Below the pieces are notes generated by a model that was not told where the DNA came from, made no database searches, and was given only the letters and a program-made list of their open reading frames with translations. Both the position numbers and the translations under genes were made by a program. Below are positions 13,627-25,522 of a DNA stretch of 64,000 nt, piece after piece. How positions within the stretch are numbered: position 1 is the first letter of the stretch; the number at the start of each line of letters is the position of its first letter. The stretch comes from Martinezella rhizogenes (GTDB lineage Bacteria > Pseudomonadota > Alphaproteobacteria > Rhizobiales > Rhizobiaceae): contig NZ_JUHG01000011.1 of assembly GCF_000799715.1 (NCBI RefSeq), forward strand, positions 806,001 to 870,000. The letters are read 5' to 3'.

Positions 13627-14775
13627 CTAGAAGCAGTCGCGGAATAGCGCCTTGGTGTTTTCCAGCGTCATTGGCACGGGATTGCCACCGGCGCTGGGAT
13701 CCTCGATCGCCATGGCCGAGAGCTCGTCGATCCGATCCGGCGTGATGCCCATGGCCGAGAGGCTTTCGGGAACGCCAAGCTCGGCGCGCAATTGCAGCAC
13801 GTATTCGTAAAAGCCGTCGAAGCCACCGGAAATCCCGAGATAAGCGGCCGCGCGGGCGATCTTGTCTTCGATGAGCTTGCGGTTGAAGCGCAGCACGGCC
13901 GGCATGACGACGGCATTGGTCATGCCGTGATGCGTATTGTAGACGGCGCCGATTGGGTGCGACAGCGCGTGAATGGCGCCGAGCCCCTTCTGGAACGCGA
14001 CGGCGCCCATGGCGGCAGCGCTCATCATGTTGGCGCGGGCTTCAAGATCGGTGCCTTCCTTGTAGGCACGCGGCAGGAATTCCTTCACGAGCCGCATGCC
14101 TTCCAGCGCAATGCCGGCCGACATCGGATGATAGAAGGGCGAGGAATAGGCTTCCAGGCAATGAGCGAACGCATCCATGCCGGTGCCGGCGGTAATGACC
14201 TTCGGCATGCCGACCGTCAGTTCCGGATCGGCGATGACGACGCCCGGCAGGAACTTCGGATGGAAGATGATCTTCTTCACATGCGTTTGGGAATTGGTGA
14301 TGACGCTGGCACGGCCGACTTCGGAGCCGGTGCCGGCCGTTGTCGGAACGGCAACGATCGGGGCGATGCCTTCGACATTGGCGCGGGTCCACCAGTCGCC
14401 GATATCCTCGAAATCCCAGACCGGACGCGTCTGGCCCGCCATAAAGGCAACACACTTGCCGAGGTCGAGGCCCGAGCCGCCGCCGAAGGCGACGACACCA
14501 TCATGACCGCCATCCTTGAATGCCTTGACGCCGGCCTCGAGGTTCTTCTCGTTCGGATTGGGATCGACGTCGGCGAAGATGGCACGGCCGAGACCGGCAT
14601 CCTCAAGAATATCCAGCGCCGTCTTGGTGATCGCCATCGAGGCGAGGCCCCGGTCGGTGATCAGCAGGGGCTTCTTGATCCCCAGGCTTTTGCAGGCATC
14701 CGCCAGTTCCGTGATCCGGCCGCGACCGAGCTTGAAGGCGGTGGGATAGCTCCAATTGGCTGAGATAGTGCTCAT
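13627..14775 (-). CDS. Iron-containing (group III) alcohol dehydrogenase
   Basis: A 382-residue group III alcohol dehydrogenase. The NAD loop is GGGSGLDLGKC; TTAGTGSEVG and the metal ligands in GTGMDAFAHCLEAY and LSHPIGAVYNTHHGM (two histidines) follow in the normal order, so it should be active. The family oxidises or reduces short alcohols and aldehydes. The ATG overlaps the stop of the aldehyde dehydrogenase gene (ATGA, 14772-14775), so the two are made together, which points to alcohol to aldehyde to acid oxidation of one substrate. With the glutamine-synthetase-like and permease genes upstream, a gamma-glutamylated amino alcohol is a reasonable guess. The open frame upstream of the chosen start is inside the previous gene. 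Confidence 0.88.
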   Translation of the reverse strand: MSTISANWSYPTAFKLGRGRITELADACKSLGIKKPLLITDRGLASMAITKTALDILEDAGLGRAIFADVDPNPNEKNLEAGVKAFKDGGHDGVVAFGGGSGLDLGKCVAFMAGQTRPVWDFEDIGDWWTRANVEGIAPIVAVPTTAGTGSEVGRASVITNSQTHVKKIIFHPKFLPGVVIADPELTVGMPKVITAGTGMDAFAHCLEAYSSPFYHPMSAGIALEGMRLVKEFLPRAYKEGTDLEARANMMSAAAMGAVAFQKGLGAIHALSHPIGAVYNTHHGMTNAVVMPAVLRFNRKLIEDKIARAAAYLGISGGFDGFYEYVLQLRAELGVPESLSAMGITPDRIDELSAMAIEDPSAGGNPVPMTLENTKALFRDCF

Positions 14776-16157
14776 GCTGTTACTTTCTTCAGATGGTAGG
14801 ATTTCGGACGCGTCAGGTTGTGGAAGCCGATGACGGAGAGCGAGCCGCCACGGCCCGTTTCCTTGACGCCGGTCCAGCACAGTGCCGGGTCGAGATAATC
14901 GGCACGGTTCATGAAGACGGTGCCGGTTTCGATGTCCCGGCCGATGCGTGCGGCGCGCTCGACATCCTTGGTCCAGAGCGACGCCGTCAGGCCATAGGGG
15001 CTGTCGTTCATCAGCTCCAGCGCTTCCGCATCGCTCTTCACCTTCATGATGCCGACCGCCGGGCCGAAGGTTTCTTCGCGCATGAAGGTCATGGAATGAT
15101 CGACATTGACGAGGATCTGTGGCGCCAGATAGGCACCGCCGTCATCGGCCGGGAACAGCTTGGGATCGACCAGAGCCTTGGCACCCTTGGCGACGGCATC
15201 GGCGATCTGCTCGCGCACCACCTTGGCGAAGCGCTTATGCGCCATCGGCCCAAGTGTCGTTTCCGGATCAAGGGGGTTGCCGAGCTTGTAGTTCGACACC
15301 CAGGCGACCGACTTCTCGACGAAGGAATCATAGAGCGATTCATGCACATAGATGCGCTCGATACCGCAGCAGCATTGGCCGGAATTGAAGGTGGCGCCGT
15401 CCATCAGCGTATCGACGGCAGCCTCCAGATCGGCGTCTTCCATGACATAGCCGGGATCCTTGCCGCCCAGTTCGAGGCCGAGGCTGGTAAAGGTGCCGGC
15501 GGCGGCGCGTTCGATGGAACGCCCGCCTTCGACCGAACCGGTGAAGTTGACGAAGTTGAAGCTTCCGGCTGCGATCAGCGCCGAGGTCGTCTCGTGGTCA
15601 AGGAAGACGTTTTGGAAAACATCGGCGGGAACCCCAGCCTCGACAAAGGCCTGCACCAACCGCTCACCGACCAGAAGCGTCTGGCTGGCATGCTTGAGGA
15701 TCACGGTATTGCCGGCCATCAACGCTGGAGCGATCGTGTTGATCGCGGTCATGTAAGGATAGTTCCAAGGCGCGATGACGAAGACGACGCCATGCGGCTC
15801 GCGTTCGATACGCCGCGCAAAATTCGCGCTGTCTTCCACCACCAGCGGCGACAGCGCATCGGCCGCGATCGAGGCGACGTAGTTGGAGCGCTCGTTGAAG
15901 CCGCGATACTCACCGCCATACTTGATCGGGCGTCCCATCTGCCAGCTCAGCTCCGGCACGACAACATCGGCCATCTCGTTGAGGCGGGCAACGCCTTTCA
16001 GCACCAGTTGAACGCGGTCCTCCAGCGGGCGGCGGGCCCAATCCTTCTGCGCCTTGCGGGCGCGGGCCACCACGTCCTTGGCAGCCTCCAGCGACAGCGC
16101 CGGGCGTTCCGCATAAACCTCGCCGTTCACGGGTGATACACATGTGATCATGGTCAT
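14772..16157 (-). CDS. NAD(P)-dependent aldehyde dehydrogenase
   Basis: A 461-residue aldehyde dehydrogenase. Landmarks are APWNYPYMTAINTIAPAL (coenzyme site), FTGSVEGGR, the general-base region LELGGKDPGYV, and the catalytic cysteine in FNSGQCCCGIERIYV, followed by REETFGPAVGIMKV. It is closest in style to succinate-semialdehyde or gamma-aminobutyraldehyde dehydrogenases. The chosen start MTMITC at 16157 has AGGA eight bases upstream. The much longer open frame is antisense-like sequence without family similarity. It is located between the glutamine-synthetase-like gene (160 bp upstream) and the iron alcohol dehydrogenase gene (4-bp overlap). Confidence 0.9.
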   Translation of the reverse strand: MTMITCVSPVNGEVYAERPALSLEAAKDVVARARKAQKDWARRPLEDRVQLVLKGVARLNEMADVVVPELSWQMGRPIKYGGEYRGFNERSNYVASIAADALSPLVVEDSANFARRIEREPHGVVFVIAPWNYPYMTAINTIAPALMAGNTVILKHASQTLLVGERLVQAFVEAGVPADVFQNVFLDHETTSALIAAGSFNFVNFTGSVEGGRSIERAAAGTFTSLGLELGGKDPGYVMEDADLEAAVDTLMDGATFNSGQCCCGIERIYVHESLYDSFVEKSVAWVSNYKLGNPLDPETTLGPMAHKRFAKVVREQIADAVAKGAKALVDPKLFPADDGGAYLAPQILVNVDHSMTFMREETFGPAVGIMKVKSDAEALELMNDSPYGLTASLWTKDVERAARIGRDIETGTVFMNRADYLDPALCWTGVKETGRGGSLSVIGFHNLTRPKSYHLKKVTA

Positions 16158-16317
16158 GATCGAAATCCTGTTTTTATAGTCACGAACATAGTTTCGGCCG
16201 GCCACGAAGAAGGTTTTTGGAAGCCCTGCGCCGCCGAAAGAAGCGCTTCGCCACAGCCTTCTTCCCTGCCCTCGCCTGGCGACGAAAATTGGGCAGGGCT
16301 CGCAATCAGCGGCAGGC

Positions 16318-17688
16318 TTACGCCCTTTCGAATCCGCGCGCCACCTCCCAATCGGTGATGCGGCGATCATACTCCTCCTGCTCCCATTCGGCAGCGCGGG
16401 TATAGTGATCGATGACCTCGTCGCCGAAGGCTGCGCGCAGCATCTTCGAGCCCGACAGCGCCACTGCCGCGTCGCGGAGCGTGCGTGGAATTTCGCGGAC
16501 TTCGCGGGCACCATAGGCATCTCCGACGAACGGCGCTTCCAGCTCAAGCTTGTTCTCGATGCCATCGAGACCGGCGGCAATCAGCGCGGCAAAGGCGAGA
16601 TAGGGGTTGAGATCGGAGCCGCCGACGCGGCATTCGATACGGATGCTCTTCGTCTCGGCACCGCAGAGACGATAGCCCGCCGTGCGGTTGTCCGTGCTCC
16701 AGATCGCCTTGGTTGGCGCGAAAGTGCCGGCGACGAAACGCTTGTAGGAATTGATATAGGGCGCGAGGAAATAGGTGATTTCGCTGGCATGGTTCAAAAG
16801 GCCGGCGACATAGTGCTTCATCAGTGGCGTCATGCCGTGCTCTTCTTCTTTGTCAAAGAACAGCGGCGTCTTGCCGTCAACGCTCCACAACGACTGATGA
16901 ATATGCGACGAGCTGCCGGCGGCGCTGTAATTCCACTTCGCGAGGAACGTGATCGCCTTGCCCTTCGCCCAGGCAATCTCCTTGCAGCCGTTCTTGATGA
17001 TCGCATGGCGGTCGGCCATATCAAGCGCGTCGGCATAGCGAACGTTGATTTCCTCCTGGCCGGCCGAGGCCTCGCCCTTGGAATTCTCGACCGGGATGTC
17101 GGCACCCTGCAAGCCCTTGCGGATCGCCCGCATTACATCCTCTTCCTTGGTGGTCTGGAAGATGTGGTAGTCTTCATTGTAGCCACTGACGAGATTGAGG
17201 TTGCGATAACCGGACTCGCGGGCGCTGTCATAGGTTTGATCGAACAAGAAGAATTCGAGCTCCGAGGCCATATAGGCCTTCATGCCCAGCGCTTCGAGAC
17301 GCTTGACCTGCTTCTTGAGTATGGCGCGCGGCGAATGAGCCACTTCTTCGTGGGTGTGATGGTCAAGCACGTCGCAGAGCACAAGCGCCGTGCCTTCGAG
17401 CCAGGGAATGCGGCGAAGCGTGGAGAGGTCCGGCTTCATCGTATAGTCGCCATAACCCTTTTCCCAGCTGGTCGACTTGTAGCCGGAAACGGTCTCCATC
17501 TCGATGTCGGTCGCCTGCAGATAGTTGCAGCTATGCGTTTCCTTCCAGGCGCTGTCGACGAAGAATTCCGCCTGGAATCGTTTGCCCATCAGACGGCCTT
17601 GCATGTCCACCTGGCATGCCAAAACCGTGTCGATGCGACCCTCGGCCACATCCAGTCTGAGGTCGTCTAACGTATAGCTAGTGCTCAT
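16318..17688 (-). CDS. Glutamine-synthetase-like gamma-glutamyl-amine ligase
   Basis: A 456-residue protein of the glutamine synthetase superfamily. The ATP-grasp-like GS catalytic segments are present: ASELEFFLF (metal-binding glutamates), the histidine motif GSSSHIHQSLW, FAPTKAIWSTDNRTAGYR and ECRVGGSDLNPYLA. Length and these motifs match PuuA/IpuC-type ligases, which glutamylate polyamines or alkylamines, rather than the main nitrogen-assimilating GlnA. Known: such ligases sit beside permeases, aldehyde dehydrogenases and gamma-glutamyl hydrolases. Here an APC permease lies 147 bp upstream and dehydrogenases lie downstream. The amine is not known; an amino alcohol would explain the alcohol dehydrogenase. 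Confidence 0.85.
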   Translation of the reverse strand: MSTSYTLDDLRLDVAEGRIDTVLACQVDMQGRLMGKRFQAEFFVDSAWKETHSCNYLQATDIEMETVSGYKSTSWEKGYGDYTMKPDLSTLRRIPWLEGTALVLCDVLDHHTHEEVAHSPRAILKKQVKRLEALGMKAYMASELEFFLFDQTYDSARESGYRNLNLVSGYNEDYHIFQTTKEEDVMRAIRKGLQGADIPVENSKGEASAGQEEINVRYADALDMADRHAIIKNGCKEIAWAKGKAITFLAKWNYSAAGSSSHIHQSLWSVDGKTPLFFDKEEEHGMTPLMKHYVAGLLNHASEITYFLAPYINSYKRFVAGTFAPTKAIWSTDNRTAGYRLCGAETKSIRIECRVGGSDLNPYLAFAALIAAGLDGIENKLELEAPFVGDAYGAREVREIPRTLRDAAVALSGSKMLRAAFGDEVIDHYTRAAEWEQEEYDRRITDWEVARGFERA

Positions 17689-17784
17689 GTTTGATCCGCC
17701 TGAACATTAATGGTGGCATCGGACAACAAAACGCCATTCCCTGACGGGAGAAACCCGCATTCGGCGCTGCGTTTGTGCCGGTGA

Positions 17785-17810
17785 AAGAGGCCGCACGCAT
17801 GCGGCCTCTT
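17785..17810 (-). terminator. Hairpin between permease and glutamine-synthetase-like gene
   Basis: AAGAGGCCGCA (17785-17795) pairs with TGCGGCCTCTT (17800-17810) around four bases. The T-run on the minus strand is short, so it may only partly terminate and lower expression of the downstream enzymes. Confidence 0.65.
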
Positions 17811-17835
17811 GGTTTTAGGACGTGTGGTCCAGCCC

Positions 17836-19407
17836 TCAGCTTTCGCCGACAGCCGCTTCCGCCGCTGCGATATCCGCCTTGCGCTTGGCGATCGCATCAC
17901 CGATCGGCGGGCCCTTGAAGCGGCGGCGCTCGAAACCAAACCAGACGATTGCCGTCAGCACGAGGAAGCCGACGGTAATGATACTCGCCCAGTCATTCGG
18001 CGGCTGAATACCAATAACGAAGATGATGATCATCGAGATGACCGTCAGCACGGCAAAGAGCTTGAACAGTCCCTCACCGAGGTTCCATGGACCCATCTTG
18101 TCCCACTTCGCCGTGCCCCATGCGAAGAGGCCGAGCGTGATCGGGATCGCGAAGGAGAAGAAGAGGAAGATGACGGTGCACGACACGACGATGCTATACA
18201 CCGGCGTATCGCCGATAGACACCAGCGACGAACCCCAGACGAACAACACCGAAAGGATCGAGCCGGTCCAGATCGCCGAAACCGGCGTGCGGTATTTCGG
18301 GCTGACCTTGGCGAGTGCCTTGGAAGCCGGAAGGCCGCCGTCACGCGAAAACGCGAAGATCATGCGCGACACCGACGTCACCGTCGCCAGACCGCACAGC
18401 CACTGGCTGATGAGGATCAGGAAGTACAGAATGTCCTTGATGATCGGGTTCACCTGAGTGTTCATCGCCCAGAAGAACACGTTCCAGCCCTGCTTTGCGG
18501 CGTCGTCCATGTTCGGGAGCATCAGCACGAACGAGCACAGCATGATGTAGCCGAACAATGCCGACCAAAGCACGGAGCCTACCATGCCGCGTGGAACGGA
18601 ATGGGCCGCCTTGACGGTCTCTTCCGAGGTATGCGCGGAGGCATCATAGCCGGTGATCGTATAGATCGGCAGGAGCAGGCCGAGAGCGAAGACCCAGAAG
18701 GTAGACACCTGCGGCCAGACCGGAGCGCCGGTCGCCGTGCCGTCGGCTGCAATCGTGGCCAAGCCCGAATAGTTGGTGAAGGTGAACAGCCGGGCAAAAT
18801 CGAAGGATGGCGCGGCGGCCAGGCACACGACTGACAGTGCGATCGCCGTTGCGAAGATCAGATAGCCGGAAAAGTCGGTCAGCTTGGCCGTCAGTCCGAT
18901 GCCCATATGGTTCACCAGTGCCTGAAGCCCGGTGATGACGATCAGGAACACCATACGGACCAATGTCGTATCGGTCATGTCGAAATAACCGCCGAACGCG
19001 CCGATAAAGAAGTAGTAGGTGCCGACATTGATCGCGCCGAGAACCGTGACGAGACCGAGAAGGTTGAACCAGGCGGTCAGCCAGCCCGTGAACCGATTAC
19101 CAAGGATCGAGCCCCAGTGATAGAGCCCGCCCGCGGTCGGATAGGCTGAGCTGATCTGTGCCATCGCAACAGCGAATACGAGAGAAATAAAGCAACCAAC
19201 CGGCCAGCCGATGCCGATCGCGGCACCGCCTGCGCCTGATGTTGCCTGAGCAAGCGAGTTGATGCCACCGGAAAGAATACAAATGATCGAAAAGGATACC
19301 GCGAAATTCGAGAACGAACTCATCCGCCGTTCCAACTCCTGGGCATAGCCCATGGAGTGCAGGATATGCACATCCTCTTTCTTGTCTAAGTCTGTGTAAT
19401 CAGACAT
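17836..19407 (-). CDS. APC-family amino acid / amine permease
   Basis: A 523-residue inner-membrane transporter with about twelve hydrophobic segments. The N-terminal segment LERRMSSFSNFAVSFSII and the GITGYDASAHTSEET-like sequence (here TITGYDASAHTSEETVK) are typical of the GABA/choline/ethanolamine permease branch of APC. It should import an amine or amino acid by proton symport. The ATG at 19407 has GGGGGAA six bases upstream. It is transcribed toward the glutamine-synthetase-like gene and lies 126 bp after the N-formylglutamate-amidohydrolase-like gene, so it is likely the uptake step of the pathway encoded by the following genes. Confidence 0.88.
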   Translation of the reverse strand: MSDYTDLDKKEDVHILHSMGYAQELERRMSSFSNFAVSFSIICILSGGINSLAQATSGAGGAAIGIGWPVGCFISLVFAVAMAQISSAYPTAGGLYHWGSILGNRFTGWLTAWFNLLGLVTVLGAINVGTYYFFIGAFGGYFDMTDTTLVRMVFLIVITGLQALVNHMGIGLTAKLTDFSGYLIFATAIALSVVCLAAAPSFDFARLFTFTNYSGLATIAADGTATGAPVWPQVSTFWVFALGLLLPIYTITGYDASAHTSEETVKAAHSVPRGMVGSVLWSALFGYIMLCSFVLMLPNMDDAAKQGWNVFFWAMNTQVNPIIKDILYFLILISQWLCGLATVTSVSRMIFAFSRDGGLPASKALAKVSPKYRTPVSAIWTGSILSVLFVWGSSLVSIGDTPVYSIVVSCTVIFLFFSFAIPITLGLFAWGTAKWDKMGPWNLGEGLFKLFAVLTVISMIIIFVIGIQPPNDWASIITVGFLVLTAIVWFGFERRRFKGPPIGDAIAKRKADIAAAEAAVGES

Positions 19408-19533
19408 GTCATTCCCCCTAAAACCAAGCCTTCCGCGGAATTGCGAAAGACCGTATCTCATGTGAGCCACCGGCTTTTTGCCGTATGGCCCGATCGCAGT
19501 TGAGCTGCTCCCCGGGGTCTTTTCTTCTTCTAA

Positions 19534-20301
19534 TCAGGCTTCCAGACTGCTCTGGAGAAGCCCTGTCAGATAGTCGGCCACGACCCCTTGGCCGACGTCA
19601 TCCACGACGAGGTCGTTGCGGACCTCGATCATTACATTATGCAAACCATTGGCGACCCCATGCAACTTCAGCGTATGGGTGACGCCATCATCAGGCCCGT
19701 AAGGTTCGTTGCGCTCGGTACGATAAAGCGGCGCCTCAGCCGCCGCATCGAGCATCCGATCCGCCAGCCAACGATCGTCATCATGCAGAATGCCGAGCTC
19801 CACCGCCCGAGGCTTGCCATTGTAGACAGGGGTAAAGCTGTGGACGGTGACGATCACGTTTTTTTGTCCCCTAGCCGCCCGCTCTTTCAAAAGTGCCTGA
19901 ATGCGATTGTGGAACGGTATGTAAAGCGCCTCGGTCCGAGCCTCCCGATCCGCGGCCCGCAGATGCTGATTGCCGGGGATCGTGTAGATCTCGCTGACTT
20001 CCGGCATCGCGCCAGCGCTTTCCGGCGGCCGGTTGCAATCATAAATCAGACGAGAGAAGCGCTGATGCACCAATGTTGCATCAAGGCTATTGGAGATTTT
20101 CTGGGCAATCGCCAATGCTCCAGGATCCCAGGCAATGTGGCTGGCAAGCGCTTCGGGCGACAGGCCGAGATCGCCGAAGCGCTCCGGCAGTCTGCGAGAT
20201 GCATGTTCGCAAATGATGAAAAACGGACTCTTTCCGTTCGGCCGTTCGACCGCGACGCACTCCCCATCCGCTTCCGTCAGAATGCCTTGCTGGGCAAGCA
20301 T
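19534..20301 (-). CDS. N-formylglutamate amidohydrolase family protein
   Basis: About 255 residues from the ATG at 20301. Family landmarks are FFIICEHASRRLP (metal ligands), HIAWDPGA, SRLIYDCNRPP, VTVHSFTPVYNGKPR and LHNVMIEVRNDL. Classical members release formate from N-formylglutamate in histidine breakdown, but no hut genes are nearby. The place next to a gamma-glutamyl ligase suggests it may hydrolyse another N-acyl or gamma-glutamyl compound; that is inference. The start is uncertain: in-frame ATGs at 20397 and 20406 would add 32-35 residues but lie in AT-rich, promoter-like sequence, and the 20301 start has only a weak ribosome site. It is divergent from the RpiR regulator gene. Confidence 0.8.
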   Translation of the reverse strand: MLAQQGILTEADGECVAVERPNGKSPFFIICEHASRRLPERFGDLGLSPEALASHIAWDPGALAIAQKISNSLDATLVHQRFSRLIYDCNRPPESAGAMPEVSEIYTIPGNQHLRAADREARTEALYIPFHNRIQALLKERAARGQKNVIVTVHSFTPVYNGKPRAVELGILHDDDRWLADRMLDAAAEAPLYRTERNEPYGPDDGVTHTLKLHGVANGLHNVMIEVRNDLVVDDVGQGVVADYLTGLLQSSLEA

Positions 20302-20398
20302 TGCAGGCGCCCCATCGCTTCTTAATAAAATATTTATAAGAAAAGAATTCTTCAGGTTTCGACTGGTGTCAACCGCAAACTGAAAATATTTCTTCATT

Positions 20399-20481: not shown

Positions 20482-21354
20482 GTGAGCAATGCGTCGAAGA
20501 CAGTTTCGGACGTAATCCATGCCCAATTCGACGCGTTGACGCGCGCCGAAAAGCAGCTCGCCAAGAGCCTGCTCGACAATTACCCCGTTTCGGGGTTGGG
20601 CAGCATTACGACGGTCGCCGAGAACGCCCGCGTGTCCACGCCGACCGTGGCGCGCATGGTGCAGAAACTTGGCTACAAAGGTTATCCGGATTTTCAATCG
20701 CACCTCCATCACGAGGTCGAGGCGACCATCTCCAATCCGCTGACGAAGCATGATCGCTGGGCATCCAAGGCCCCTGGCACGCATATCCTCAACCGCTTTG
20801 CCGACGCCATCATGGGCAATCTCCGCCAGACCCTGACGGATCTCGATGTGGCGACCTTCGAGAGCGTCGCCGCGCTGCTGTCGGAGCGCAAACGCGGGCT
20901 TTATTTCGTCGGTGGGCGCATTACCGGCGCGCTTGCCGAATATTTCTTTACCCATATGCAGGTCATCCGACCGAACACGACCCTGCTCTCCTCCAATTCC
21001 AGCTCGTGGCCGCAATATGTTTTGAACATGAACCCCGGCGATCTGCTCGTGATCTTCGATATCAGGCGCTATGAGCAGGAGATGGTCAATCTCGCCGCCG
21101 CCGCCCGCCGCCATGGAGCCGAGATCATCGTCTTCACCGACCAATGGGCCACGCCCGCCGCCAAGCATGCCAGGCACACGTTTCGCGTGCAAATAGAGGC
21201 GCCGTCGGCCTGGGATTCCTCTGTCGTCACCCTCTTCATCGTGGAAGCACTGATTGAGGCCGTGCAGAGTTCGACCTGGGATGAGACGAGCGAGCGTATG
21301 AAAACCCTGGAGGGTCTCTTCGAACAGACGCGCCTGTTCCGCAAGCTAAGTTAG
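20482..21354 (+). CDS. MurR/RpiR-family transcriptional regulator
   Basis: A 290-residue regulator. Residues about 1-85 form the RpiR helix-turn-helix (LTRAEKQLAKSLLDNYPVSG, then NARVSTPTVARMVQKLGYKG). Residues about 125-270 form a SIS domain (GLYFVGGRITGALAEYFFTH, IVFTDQWATPAAKHA), which usually binds a phosphosugar or related ligand. The GTG start has GGGGAG ten bases upstream. It lies between a divergent N-formylglutamate-amidohydrolase gene and the ABC importer genes starting at 21540, so it probably controls one or both. In several rhizobial clusters RpiR proteins control amino-acid or amine uptake, but the ligand here is unknown. Confidence 0.87.
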   Translation: MSNASKTVSDVIHAQFDALTRAEKQLAKSLLDNYPVSGLGSITTVAENARVSTPTVARMVQKLGYKGYPDFQSHLHHEVEATISNPLTKHDRWASKAPGTHILNRFADAIMGNLRQTLTDLDVATFESVAALLSERKRGLYFVGGRITGALAEYFFTHMQVIRPNTTLLSSNSSSWPQYVLNMNPGDLLVIFDIRRYEQEMVNLAAAARRHGAEIIVFTDQWATPAAKHARHTFRVQIEAPSAWDSSVVTLFIVEALIEAVQSSTWDETSERMKTLEGLFEQTRLFRKLS

Positions 21355-21539
21355 AAGGAAAAGAAGTATTGAATAACGACCTGCGAATTTGCCAGCAAGA
21401 CATTACCCGTCATAGTTCGTGAATAAGAGTAAATCCCTGCATTTGTTGGAAACGCAACTCATTGAACCCGTCACACAACCTTCATGCAACGTCATTAACA
21501 GCAACGCCAGACACTGAAAACCTAAAAGGAGGAATACCA

Positions 21540-22643
21540 GTGATCACGAAAATTCATCGTCTTCTGACGCTCTCCACTGCGATGATCATGGCTTCGACCG
21601 CCATCGCTGCTGCTGAACCGAGCGCGGACCTCATCGCTGCCGCCAAAAAGGAAGGCACGCTGACCACGATCGCCCTGCCCCACAACTGGTGCGGTTATGG
21701 CGATCTCATCGCAGCCTTCAAGGCGAAGTACGGCCTGGAGGTCAACGAACTCAATCCGGACGCCGGCTCGGGCGATGAAGTCGAAGCCATCCGCGCCAAC
21801 AAGGGCAATACCGGCCCGCAGGCTCCCGACGTAATCGACGTTGGTCTCTCCTTTGGTCCCTCCGCCAAGAAAGACGGCCTGATCCAGCCTTACAAGGTCT
21901 CGACCTGGGATTCGATTCCGGACAGCGCCAAGGATGCCGACGGCTACTGGTACGGCGATTATTACGGCGTTCTCTCCTTCGTCAGCAACAAGGACGTCGT
22001 GAAGAACCCGCCGAAGGATTGGGCCGATCTGCAGAAACCGGAATATGCGAACTCGGTTTCGCTCGCCGGCGACCCACGCACCTCGAACCAGGCCATCCAA
22101 GCTGTTTACGCAGCTGGTCTCGCAGCTGGCGAGAAGGATGCCACCAAGATCGGCCAGGCCGGTCTGGACTACTTCGCCAAGCTGAACAAGGCTGGTAACT
22201 TCGTTCCGGTCATTGGCAAGTCTGCATCGCTCGCTCAGGGCGCAACCCCAATCGTGGTCGCCTGGGACTACGGTGGTCTCGCCTGGCGTGACAGCCTGAA
22301 CGGCAACCCGCCGGTCGACGTTACAGTTCCGGCTTCGGGCGTCATCGCAGGCGTATACGTGCAGGCGATCTCGGCTTTCGCGCCGCATCCGAATGCTGCC
22401 AAGCTCTGGATGGAATTCCTCTATTCCGACGAAGGTCAGATCGGCTGGCTAAAGGGTTATTGCCACCCGATCCGCTTCAACGACCTGGCGAAGAACAAGA
22501 AGATCCCACAGGATCTTCTCGACAAGTTGCCGCCGGCTGCTGCCTATGAAAAAGCCGTTTTCCCGACGCTCGACGAACAGGCCGCCAGCAAGGTCGCCAT
22601 CACCACCAATTGGGACGCTGTCGTCGGTTCGAACGTACAGTAA
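21540..22643 (+). CDS. ABC transporter periplasmic substrate-binding protein (Fe/polyamine class)
   Basis: A 367-residue extracellular solute-binding protein. A 26-residue signal peptide (ITKIHRLLTL, ending AIAAA-EP) directs it to the periplasm. The body has the family pattern of LIAAAKKEGTLTTIALPH, WYGDYYGVLSFVSNKDVV and SGVIAGVYVQAISAFAPHPN. I chose the GTG at 21540 because AGGAGG lies seven bases before it; the ATG at 21462 adds a non-signal extension. It is the first gene of an ABC set with two permeases and an ATPase, separated from the permeases by a terminator-like hairpin, which usually keeps the binding protein in excess. The class takes polyamines, ferric ions or phosphonates; the substrate is not decided. 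Confidence 0.88.
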   Translation: MITKIHRLLTLSTAMIMASTAIAAAEPSADLIAAAKKEGTLTTIALPHNWCGYGDLIAAFKAKYGLEVNELNPDAGSGDEVEAIRANKGNTGPQAPDVIDVGLSFGPSAKKDGLIQPYKVSTWDSIPDSAKDADGYWYGDYYGVLSFVSNKDVVKNPPKDWADLQKPEYANSVSLAGDPRTSNQAIQAVYAAGLAAGEKDATKIGQAGLDYFAKLNKAGNFVPVIGKSASLAQGATPIVVAWDYGGLAWRDSLNGNPPVDVTVPASGVIAGVYVQAISAFAPHPNAAKLWMEFLYSDEGQIGWLKGYCHPIRFNDLAKNKKIPQDLLDKLPPAAAYEKAVFPTLDEQAASKVAITTNWDAVVGSNVQ

Positions 22644-22658
22644 TCCGACTAGAAATGA

Positions 22659-22684
22659 CCTCCCCGTTTCGACGGGGAGGTTTT
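22659..22684 (+). terminator. Attenuating hairpin between binding-protein and permease genes
   Basis: CCTCCCCGT (22659-22667) pairs with ACGGGGAGG (22672-22680) around a stable TTCG tetraloop and is followed by TTTT. It lies inside an ABC operon and probably lets only part of the transcripts continue. Confidence 0.85.
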
Positions 22685-22714
22685 CCGTTTTCGATGCCGC
22701 AGATTGGGCACCTC

Positions 22715-23608
22715 ATGAGCACCGTCACCACATCAACGATCAGTTCTGCTCCCCTGATCAGCAAGCGCGCCGTCATCGACTGGCTGGGTATTGCACCCTT
22801 CCTGATCTTCGCGCTGCTGTTTCTGATTTTCCCGACGATCTATCTCGTCGCCGGCGCATTTCTGACACCGGACGGGAGCTTCACGCTCAAGAACATCGCC
22901 GATCTGTTCACGCCGTCGATCATGAGTTCCTACTGGATCAGTATCAAGGTGTCGGTTGTTTCCGCGCTCGGCGGCGCGCTCATCGGTTTCTATCTTGCCT
23001 GGGCACTGGTCATGGGTGGCCTTCCAGCCTGGGTCCGCCATACATTTCTGACCTTTTCGGGCGTGGCCTCCAATTTCGCCGGCGTACCGCTAGCCTTCGC
23101 GTTCATCGCCACGATCGGCCGTCTCGGGCTCGTCACCGTGCTGATGGTGGAGTTGTTCGGCTTCAATCTGTACTCGACCGGCTTCAATCTCTACAGCTTC
23201 ATCGGCCTCACCATCACCTATATGTATTTCCAGATCCCGCTGATGGTGCTGATCATCACCCCAGCGCTGGACGGCATGAAGAAGGAATGGCGCGAGGCCG
23301 CCTCCATTCTCGGCGCCACCAACGGACAATATTGGCTGATGGTGGCGCTGCCCATCCTCTGGCCGAGCCTGCTCGGCACGACGCTGCTGTTGTTTGCCAA
23401 CGCTTTCGGCGCGATCGCAACAGCCATCGCACTGACCGGCAGCTCGCTCAATATCGTACCGATCCAGCTTTACGCACAAATTCGCGGCGACGTGCTGCAT
23501 AATGCCAATCTCGGCTATGCCATGGCGCTCGGCATGATCGTCATCACCGGCATCTCGAACGTCATCTACATTCTCATGCGCATGCGCGCTGAACGGTGGC
23601 AAAAATGA
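22715..23608 (+). CDS. ABC transporter permease, first subunit
   Basis: A 297-residue inner-membrane protein with about six hydrophobic segments. The cytoplasmic EAA loop is EWREAASILGATNGQYWLMV, which contacts the ATPase. The family is the BPD_transp_1 (CysTW/PotB-like) type. Start choice is uncertain: ATG 22715 (MSTVTTSTISS) gives a normal cytoplasmic N-terminus, while ATG 22694 would add seven residues. Neither has a strong ribosome site. It overlaps the second permease gene by four bases. Confidence 0.87.
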   Translation: MSTVTTSTISSAPLISKRAVIDWLGIAPFLIFALLFLIFPTIYLVAGAFLTPDGSFTLKNIADLFTPSIMSSYWISIKVSVVSALGGALIGFYLAWALVMGGLPAWVRHTFLTFSGVASNFAGVPLAFAFIATIGRLGLVTVLMVELFGFNLYSTGFNLYSFIGLTITYMYFQIPLMVLIITPALDGMKKEWREAASILGATNGQYWLMVALPILWPSLLGTTLLLFANAFGAIATAIALTGSSLNIVPIQLYAQIRGDVLHNANLGYAMALGMIVITGISNVIYILMRMRAERWQK

Positions 23609-24393
23609 AGCTGCAAAAATTCTTTGCCTGGATCGCGGTTGCCATCGGCGCCTTCTATTTCATCGTACCGCTTATCGGCACATTGGAGTTCTCGTTGCGC
23701 ATGCGCCGCAACGCCTACAGTTTTGATGCCTATACCTCGGTCTTTTCCGATCCCAGCTTCCTTTATGCCTTCGGCTATTCGATGCTGATGGCCGTGCTGA
23801 CCATCATTTTCGGCATGCTGCTTGTGGTGCCGACGGCCTATTGGGTTCGCCTGCGCTTGCCGCAGATACGCCCGCTGGTGGAATTCATCACCTTGATGCC
23901 GCTGGTCATCCCGGCGATCGTCATCGTCTTCGGCTATTTGCGTCTCTATAACTCGTCGTCGATCCTGCCGCTGACGGGCTATAATCAAACGACGAATATC
24001 CTGCTCGTCTGCTCGTACATTGTGCTGTCCCTGCCCTACATGTATCGTTCGGTCGATACGGCGATGCGTACCATCGACATCGGTACGTTGACCGAAGCCG
24101 CCGAAAGCCTGGGTGCCAGCTGGACGACCATCATGTTCAAATGCATCTTCCCGAATGTCATGAGCGGCGTGCTTTCCGGCGCCTTCATCACGCTCGCGAT
24201 CGTCATGGGCGAGTTCACCATGGCCTCGCTCCTCAATCGTCCGGCATTCGGCCCCTACATGCAGCTCGTCGGCGCCAACCAGGCCTATCAGTCCTCAGCG
24301 CTGGCGATCATCGCACTCGCCATAACCTGGCTCAGCATGGGCTTGCTCCAGCTGGTCTCCCGTTTCTCAAAATCCGCTCCGATTAAGGCGTAA
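23605..24393 (+). CDS. ABC transporter permease, second subunit
   Basis: A 262-residue membrane protein with about six hydrophobic segments and the EAA loop TLTEAAESLGASWTTIMFKC. The PotC-like size and order (permease, permease, ATPase) match polyamine/iron importers. The ATG at 23605 overlaps the stop of the first permease gene (ATGA) and has GGTGG just upstream, which shows translational coupling. An in-frame GTG at 23596 is less likely. Confidence 0.88.
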   Translation: MKLQKFFAWIAVAIGAFYFIVPLIGTLEFSLRMRRNAYSFDAYTSVFSDPSFLYAFGYSMLMAVLTIIFGMLLVVPTAYWVRLRLPQIRPLVEFITLMPLVIPAIVIVFGYLRLYNSSSILPLTGYNQTTNILLVCSYIVLSLPYMYRSVDTAMRTIDIGTLTEAAESLGASWTTIMFKCIFPNVMSGVLSGAFITLAIVMGEFTMASLLNRPAFGPYMQLVGANQAYQSSALAIIALAITWLSMGLLQLVSRFSKSAPIKA

Positions 24394-24404
24394 GGCTCCC
24401 CACC

Positions 24405-25466
24405 ATGGCTTTTCTCGAACTCACCCATCTCAAGAAATCCTTCGGCGAAGTCCAGGTCGTTCACGACTTCACCATGCACATCGAGAAGGGAGAATTCGTC
24501 TCCTTCCTCGGTCCGTCGGGTTGCGGCAAGACGACAGTCCTGCGCATGATCGCCGGCTTCGAAAGCCCGACCGCCGGGACCTTGACGATCAACGGCAAGG
24601 ACCAGCGCCCGCTGAAGCCGAACCAGCGCAATATCGGCATGGTGTTCCAGGCCTACGCGCTGTTTCCGAACATGACCGTGCATGACAACGTCGCCTTCGG
24701 CCTCAAGGTCGCCGGCATGGCCAAGCCCGACATCGACAGCCGAGTCAAGGAAATGCTCGGTCTGATCAAGCTCGATCATCTTGCCGACCGCTACCCTTAC
24801 CAGATGTCCGGCGGCCAGCAGCAGCGTGTGGCGCTCGCCCGCGCCATCGCCGTCAAGCCGCAGGTGTTGCTGCTCGACGAACCGCTTTCGGCGCTCGACG
24901 CCAAGATCCGCGTATCGCTGCGCGAGGAAATCCGCGCCATCCAGCGGCAACTCGGCATCACCACCGTCTTCGTGACGCACGATCAGGAAGAAGCCCTGTC
25001 GATCTCCGACCGCATCGTCGTCATGAACGGCGGTCGAGCCGACCAGATCGGTACGCCCTACGAAATCTACAACACCCCGGCCACCCGCTTCGTCGCCTCC
25101 TTCGTCGGTACGTTGAATCTGATCGAAGGCAAGGTCGTCGATCCGGACAGCAACCGCATCATGATCGGTGATCAGGGCGTGACGCTGAAGCAGTCGGTCA
25201 CGGCCTACAAGCCGGGCGACACCGTATCGCTGGCGCTGCGCCCGGAAGCGGGATCGCTGGCGGAATCGGCCAAGGGCGACACCGCGCTGACCGGCGAAGT
25301 CTCCTCGGCGCATTTCCTCGGCTCCGTCATCCGCACGCGCATGAATGTCGGCGGCAACACCATCTCCTTCGACATGTTCAACAGCCCTGGCCTGTTGCCG
25401 CCCAGCGTCGGTGAAAAGGTGACGCTGCGCTTCGCCTCCTCCGATCTACTGGTCATCCAGGACTGA
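24405..25466 (+). CDS. ABC transporter ATP-binding protein (PotA-like)
   Basis: A 353-residue ATPase. Walker A is GPSGCGKTT, the signature is MSGGQQQRVALARA, and Walker B is VLLLDEPLSALD, followed by the switch histidine in FVTHDQEEAL. Residues after about 240 form a TOBE domain, as in PotA/FbpC/CysA. It powers import by the two preceding permeases, 11 bp downstream of them. A rho-independent terminator at 25496 closes the operon, so the following FMN riboswitch and ribH2 are separate. Confidence 0.92.
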   Translation: MAFLELTHLKKSFGEVQVVHDFTMHIEKGEFVSFLGPSGCGKTTVLRMIAGFESPTAGTLTINGKDQRPLKPNQRNIGMVFQAYALFPNMTVHDNVAFGLKVAGMAKPDIDSRVKEMLGLIKLDHLADRYPYQMSGGQQQRVALARAIAVKPQVLLLDEPLSALDAKIRVSLREEIRAIQRQLGITTVFVTHDQEEALSISDRIVVMNGGRADQIGTPYEIYNTPATRFVASFVGTLNLIEGKVVDPDSNRIMIGDQGVTLKQSVTAYKPGDTVSLALRPEAGSLAESAKGDTALTGEVSSAHFLGSVIRTRMNVGGNTISFDMFNSPGLLPPSVGEKVTLRFASSDLLVIQD

Positions 25467-25495
25467 TCGACGTCTGTTGGACAAATTTTTCACAA

Positions 25496-25522
25496 GCGCC
25501 GGGTTAATCGCCCGGCGTTTTT
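25496..25522 (+). terminator. Terminator of the ABC importer operon
   Basis: CGCCGGG (25497-25503) pairs with CCCGGCG (25511-25517) around a seven-base loop and is followed by TTTTTC. Confidence 0.88.

Follow-up and report, generated by a model that had tools for sequence, protein, structure and literature searches.

A probable ethanolamine gamma-glutamylation locus

The 64,000-nucleotide stretch of Martinezella rhizogenes DNA analysed here (positions 806,001 to 870,000 of NZ_JUHG01000011.1, our contig C1 of a 6.54-Mb genome; hereafter the window, with coordinates counted from its first letter) carries on its minus strand a five-gene set that is very probably the rhizobial form of the known gamma-glutamylation pathway for ethanolamine. 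The set encodes a PF05013-family hydrolase, an APC permease, a glutamine synthetase (GS)-like ligase, an aldehyde dehydrogenase (ALDH) and an iron-dependent alcohol dehydrogenase (Fe-ADH). We infer that ethanolamine would enter through the APC permease, and probably also through an ATP-binding cassette (ABC) importer encoded nearby, and that the ligase would join it to glutamate with consumption of ATP. The resulting gamma-glutamylethanolamide would be oxidized by the Fe-ADH to the aldehyde and by the ALDH to gamma-glutamylglycine, which the hydrolase would split into glycine and glutamate, so that glutamate would be recycled. A divergently encoded RpiR-family regulator probably controls the gene set through two palindromes in the gap between its own gene and the hydrolase gene.

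All five reading frames are open and their products match Pfam families above the curated cut-offs (Table 1), which confirms the order on one strand given in a first-pass annotation of this DNA. The 4-bp overlap that it described between the last two genes is likewise present, as an ATGA in which the ALDH gene ends and the ADH gene begins. The remaining intergenic gaps measure 126, 147 and 160 bp, with which a single transcript for the five genes is plausible but unproven. The extent first proposed, 13627-20301, encloses the five genes but does not reach the RpiR gene (20482-21354) and the four-gene ABC importer (21462-25466), which lie upstream and divergent.

Table 1. Features of the locus, in window coordinates
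Feature	Position	Strand	Evidence
Fe-dependent alcohol dehydrogenase, probable gamma-glutamylethanolamide dehydrogenase	13627..14775	-	PF00465/PF25137, 160/142 bits, above curated cut-off
Aldehyde dehydrogenase, probable gamma-glutamylacetaldehyde dehydrogenase	14772..16157	-	PF00171 (Aldedh), 409 bits, above curated cut-off
GS-family ligase, probable ethanolamine gamma-glutamylase	16318..17688	-	PF00120 (Gln-synt_C), 339 bits, above curated cut-off
APC permease, probable ethanolamine uptake	17836..19407	-	PF13520 (AA_permease_2), 167 bits, above curated cut-off
PF05013 hydrolase, probable gamma-glutamylglycine amidohydrolase	19534..20301	-	PF05013 (FGase), 152 bits, above curated cut-off
Operator-like palindrome CTGAAGAATTCTTTTCTT	20338..20355	-	best-scoring site in window
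Second operator-like palindrome ATGAAGAAATATTTTCAG	20380..20397	-	second-best site in window
RpiR-family regulator (HTH_6 + SIS), divergent	20482..21354	+	PF01418, PF01380
ABC solute-binding protein (SBP_bac_6)	21462..22643	+	PF13343
ABC permease 1 (frame open from 22610)	22703..23608	+	PF00528, 23.3 bits, just under cut-off 26.4; NCBIfam permease families all below cut-off
ABC permease 2	23596..24393	+	PF00528, 44.7 bits
ABC ATPase, 2-aminoethylphosphonate (AEP)/polyamine type	24405..25466	+	PF00005 + PF08402
Terminator-like hairpin	25494-25520		after the ABC ATPase gene

In terms of family content, the locus holds all four of the families, PF00120, PF00465, PF00171 and PF05013, that Table 2 of a 2022 review gives for this pathway in Chromohalobacter salexigens, with PF05013 assigned to gamma-glutamylglycine (PMC9397018). 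The arrangement was compared across 121 Rhizobiaceae genomes, 108 of which were placed on an RpoB tree, and across a class-wide sample of 190 genomes; named loci are the best 80 of at least 591 confirmed, and the 64 of these with full flanks are the basis of the counts out of 64 below. The ligase is found in 86 of the 121 Rhizobiaceae genomes and in 21 of the 190 class-wide genomes, the window's own included; the window ligase shares 99% identity with its counterpart in Rhizobium sp. ICMP 5592. Near the ligase in the 64 full loci are the ADH in 59, the ALDH in 58, the PF05013 hydrolase in 57 and the RpiR regulator in 55. Among the 20 other class-wide ligase regions, some of which end at contig edges, an ADH is nearby in 17 and both ALDH and ADH are adjacent in 10; the ABC binding protein is near in none.

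Two departures from this arrangement were seen. At six loci (L029, L034, L037, L038, L043 and L044) ligase and ADH are adjacent and no close relative of the ALDH stands beside them; the L034 region stops soon past the ADH, the ALDHs of L043 and L044 lie farther away (27% and 38% identity), and the aldehyde step at these six loci may be served by a different enzyme. A Rhodothermales metagenome-assembled genome (L126) carries ligase, ALDH and ADH 66-71% identical to those of the window, the result of either inter-phylum transfer or a binning error.

Enzymes of the pathway

The predicted structure of the ligase, with a mean predicted local distance difference test score (pLDDT) of 81, is most similar to 5dm3, which is Csal_0679 of C. 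salexigens (Z 50.1, 61% identity over 374 aligned residues), and next to 11zs from Brucella melitensis (Z 47.3, 62% identity); beyond these two, identity to the remaining structures among the 50 matches listed is 21-29%. Both 5dm3 and 11zs group with the window ligase and not with GlnA, and their titles, "glutamine synthetase", probably mislead. In a sequence alignment, Phe323 of the ligase occupies the position of the flap Glu of GlnA (E327), which the GlnA of the same genome retains, and this Phe is invariant in an alignment of 17 sequences. GlnA4 of Streptomyces coelicolor is likewise reported to lack the flap Glu (PMC6529630).

The Fe-ADH falls under every NCBIfam equivalog cut-off among its matches listed. 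The hydrolase was considered as the N-formylglutamate deformylase HutG and rejected (TIGR02017, 24.5 bits against a cut-off of 278.75); the sole PDB chain that it matches is 2odf, Atu2144 of Agrobacterium (310 bits). The use of an N-formylglutamate-type hydrolase for the last step, put forward as new in the first-pass annotation, had in fact been proposed already (PMC6529630), and the family is listed for it in PMC9397018.

Ethanolamine as the probable substrate

The initial proposal of an amino alcohol gamma-glutamylation, with its order of steps, its use of an alcohol dehydrogenase where the Puu pathway has an amine oxidase, and ethanolamine as first guess, is supported, and "amino alcohol" can be sharpened: ethanolamine is the best-supported substrate, though the window's genome has both routes for it. 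Within the Rhizobiaceae, EutB (ethanolamine ammonia-lyase) is present in 5 of the 86 genomes with the ligase versus 18 of the 35 without it (Fisher p 5e-8, raw counts). On the RpoB tree, 8 independent pairs on supported branches gave about 5 in which ligase and EutB change in opposite ways and 0.2 in which they change the same way (median p 0.06), so that a recurrent swap of the two is only suggestive.

The permease slot of relatives points to the same compound. It is filled by an APC permease in 28 of the 64 full loci, an EAT-like permease in 7 and a TRAP transporter in 17, while 12 loci lack all three types. Of the eight EAT-like proteins four were scanned, and TIGR00908, the EAT ethanolamine permease, was the top match of every one at 360-375 bits, just under the cut-off of 381.75; among the eight, seven share 89-100% identity and the other (L102) is 55% alike. 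One TRAP binding protein from the relatives matches 4uab (E 2e-172), which we take to be Csal_0678 with ethanolamine. The structure of Csal_0678 binds ethanolamine (PMC4646407), and Csal_0679, the match of the window ligase, carries the neighbouring locus number.

Several observations weigh against this assignment. The window's genome also encodes EutB (G000:C8:112654-113952, L128), so that ethanolamine would have two routes there, which seem to coexist. Class-wide, ligase and EutB show no avoidance, both being present in 2 of the 190 genomes where about 1.8 are expected. The window APC permease matches a broad amino-acid permease family and not the ethanolamine equivalog: its top NCBIfam match, TIGR00907, scores 190 bits, below the cut-off of 598, and TIGR00908 is not among its three NCBIfam matches at E <= 0.001. 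The PF05013 hydrolase is near the ligase in just 4 of the 20 class-wide regions, incomplete ones included, and different hydrolases must therefore serve elsewhere. Finally, the flap of the ligase model is poorly resolved (residues 312-320, pLDDT <50), and the Phe323 assignment thus stands on the sequence alignment.

The first and third of these points would also fit the same chemistry acting on another amino alcohol, such as 2-amino-1-propanol, 3-aminopropanol or serinol, with ethanolamine left to EutBC. We consider this unlikely, as relatives hold ethanolamine-type transporters in the permease slot, ligase and EutB tend to substitute for each other in the Rhizobiaceae sample, and the counterparts of these genes in Phaeobacter respond to phosphorylethanolamine (PMC10132767). 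A Puu-type pathway for putrescine or polyamines would have in common a GS-family ligase, an APC permease and an ALDH, and the ABC ATPase has some likeness to PotA (374 bits, cut-off 482), but it is very improbable: the ligase, called PuuA-like at first, reaches 200 bits against 650 for GGputSyn and the ALDH 212 against 850 for PuuC, no amine oxidase family was found among the ten window proteins scanned with Pfam, and an alcohol dehydrogenase would have no obvious role there. That the ligase is a plain glutamine synthetase among unrelated neighbours, as its top NCBIfam match (type I GlnA, TIGR00653, 263 bits, cut-off 429) and the titles of 5dm3 and 11zs might imply, is scarcely credible in view of the exchanged flap residue, the recurrent neighbouring ADH (59 of 64 full loci and 17 of 20 class-wide regions) and a separate GlnA-like protein elsewhere in the genome (469 aa, 470 Pfam bits).

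Assignment to the ethanolamine pathway would fix the annotation of a cluster that is common in the Rhizobiaceae, in which the ligase is easily misnamed glutamine synthetase and the hydrolase N-formylglutamate amidohydrolase. Membrane phospholipids are a source of ethanolamine, and the pathway would therefore connect the turnover of these lipids with the nitrogen supply of soil-dwelling and plant-associated bacteria.

The ABC importer

Ethanolamine uptake is the most likely job of the divergent ABC importer. In a fuller form of this proposal, to which we give an even chance, the importer would take up ethanolamine, or a phosphate ester of it, with high affinity, would serve gamma-glutamylation in genomes with the ligase and EutBC in genomes without it, and would replace the TRAP transporter of other lineages. 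It would then be a type of transporter not found for ethanolamine in the literature searched (the titles and abstract openings listed), in which we met no ABC importer for this compound.

Physical linkage is the better evidence on this point. The ABC binding protein lies near the ligase in 35 of the 64 full loci, distributed as 28 of the 28 with an APC permease, 6 of the 7 with an EAT-like permease and 1 of the 17 with a TRAP transporter. Of the 69 Rhizobiaceae genomes that encode it, 53 also have the ligase. The two genes are no more than 12 kb apart in 48 of those 53, with the importer downstream on the same strand in 24, upstream and divergent in 23, and downstream and reversed in 1. For the 44 linked genomes on the RpoB tree these three arrangements need 3 changes; the linkage has therefore outlasted rearrangement or been re-established by it, though on few occasions.

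Co-occurrence is less informative. By presence alone, importer and ligase are not significantly associated among the 121 genomes (p 0.16; the ligase is present in 53 of 69 genomes with the importer and in 33 of the 52 lacking it). Among the 35 genomes that have no ligase, EutB accompanies the importer in 14 of 16 cases versus 4 of 19 without it (p 0.0001); this excess depends largely on a single run of neighbouring tips, which holds 9 of the 13 genomes of this kind in the tree, and the link is not significant in independent pairs. PhnJ, used as a control, behaves similarly, with 11 of 16 versus 6 of 19 in ligase-free genomes (p 0.04) and 54 of 69 versus 27 of 52 in all 121 (p 0.003), and is again not significant in independent pairs. 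Because this control points the same way, co-occurrence cannot tell ethanolamine uptake from phosphonate uptake.

The importer may instead be a mere neighbour of the pathway and take up something else, such as 2-aminoethylphosphonate, a phosphodiester or a sugar phosphate, a possibility that we entertain tentatively but seriously. The binding protein is nearest to AEP-type families, though far under their cut-offs; identification as PhnS/PhnT was rejected, as the binding protein scores 75 bits against a cut-off of 310 and 69 against one of 395, and the ATPase 420 bits against the 457.7 of TIGR03265 (PhnT2). The importer occurs without the ligase in 16 of its 69 genomes, and the lack of a significant EutB link in independent pairs would suit another substrate. 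At two loci (L134 and L138) its neighbours include genes that resemble, by eye, those of phosphonate metabolism. The model of the binding protein (mean pLDDT 80; residues 1-50 below 50) has as its top fold match 5t1p, a putative binding protein from Campylobacter jejuni (Z 36.2), followed by binders of metal citrate, hexose phosphates, iron and polyamines; these structures too would fit another substrate, and the fold comparison points to no ligand. Set against this reading are the close linkage to the ligase in three arrangements, the EutB of most ligase-free importer genomes, and a locus (L133) at which the importer is divergent to an EAT-like permease and ligase and pathway are absent.

Two further observations concern the importer genes. 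At L147 they stand beside an APC permease and an ADH alone. In the window, an 11-bp hairpin (22657-22682) separates the binding-protein gene from that of ABC permease 1 and perhaps lets the binding protein be made in excess.

Regulator and operator-like boxes

The RpiR regulator would bind the two operator-like palindromes upstream of the hydrolase gene. A position weight matrix (PWM) was built from the 40 of 59 intergenic regions that match the seed at 12 or more of 15 positions, the other 19 falling short. In the window CTGAAGAATTCTTTTCTT scores 33.8 bits and ATGAAGAAATATTTTCAG 24.6 bits, as compared with 17.1 bits for the next-best site elsewhere; the high score of the window is partly built in because the loci behind the PWM include its close relatives. 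CTGAAGAATTCTTTTCTT begins 12 bases downstream of a TTGACA (20372-20367), and the boxes and this TTGACA are conserved when 26 relatives are aligned with the window. Only a weak site (9.2 bits) precedes the binding-protein gene, at 21356, just past the RpiR stop.

The box is missing from the Phyllobacterium and Mesorhizobium loci listed, whose RpiR proteins are 33-35% identical to that of the window. It is weak also in L092 and L096, with closer RpiR proteins (62% and 55% identical), so that the box does not track the regulator cleanly.

A separate feature of the minus-strand set is a GC-rich hairpin in the ligase-permease gap (17689-17835), a possible attenuator or processing site. In 19 relatives the longest perfect stem in this gap measures 5-13 bp, with 7 bp or more in 17; the letters vary and the pairing is kept.

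Comparison with known systems

The pathway is already published, and the locus is an ordinary member of it plus an extra transporter. The Puu pathway of E. coli shares the gamma-glutamylation logic, a GS-family ligase and an ALDH; it uses an amine oxidase and a different hydrolase, and the window ligase and ALDH score far under the Puu equivalog cut-offs.

In the glnA4 cluster of S. coelicolor, GlnA4 was studied experimentally as a gamma-glutamylethanolamide synthetase. The later steps proposed there use a dehydrogenase, then an aldehyde dehydrogenase, and for gamma-glutamylglycine a hydrolase of the formylglutamate-amidohydrolase family (PMC6529630, mBio 2019). The figure legend of that paper names a short-chain dehydrogenase where the window has an Fe-ADH, and the regulator is of another kind.

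C. salexigens shares the four enzyme families (PMC9397018) and a ligase 61% identical in structural alignment, and has a TRAP binding protein, Csal_0678, where the slot of the window holds an APC permease. In Agrobacterium, whose Atu2144 is nearest to the window hydrolase, the group's loci (L073, L074, L075 and L078) have an EAT-like permease instead. PMC10132767 states, with reference to Vetting et al. 2015, that the function of related genes has been demonstrated both in C. salexigens and in A. tumefaciens C58.

A parallel in gene order is the operon of Phaeobacter sp. MED193 (MED193_10021-10056), described in 2023 with genes for RpiR, GGAH, TRAP, ETAGA, GAADDH and GETADH, five of whose proteins (hydrolase, TRAP binding protein, ligase and both dehydrogenases) were raised on phosphorylethanolamine (PMC10132767). 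Its transporter is the TRAP system EtoVWX, the binding protein EtoX of which has a Kd of 7.9 uM for ethanolamine, whereas the window has an APC permease, and the operon is drawn without an ABC importer in the figure legend of the same paper. Its hydrolase is named gamma-glutamylglycine amidohydrolase and corresponds in position to that of the window, and regulator, hydrolase, transporter, ligase, ALDH and ADH follow one another there in the same order as in the window.

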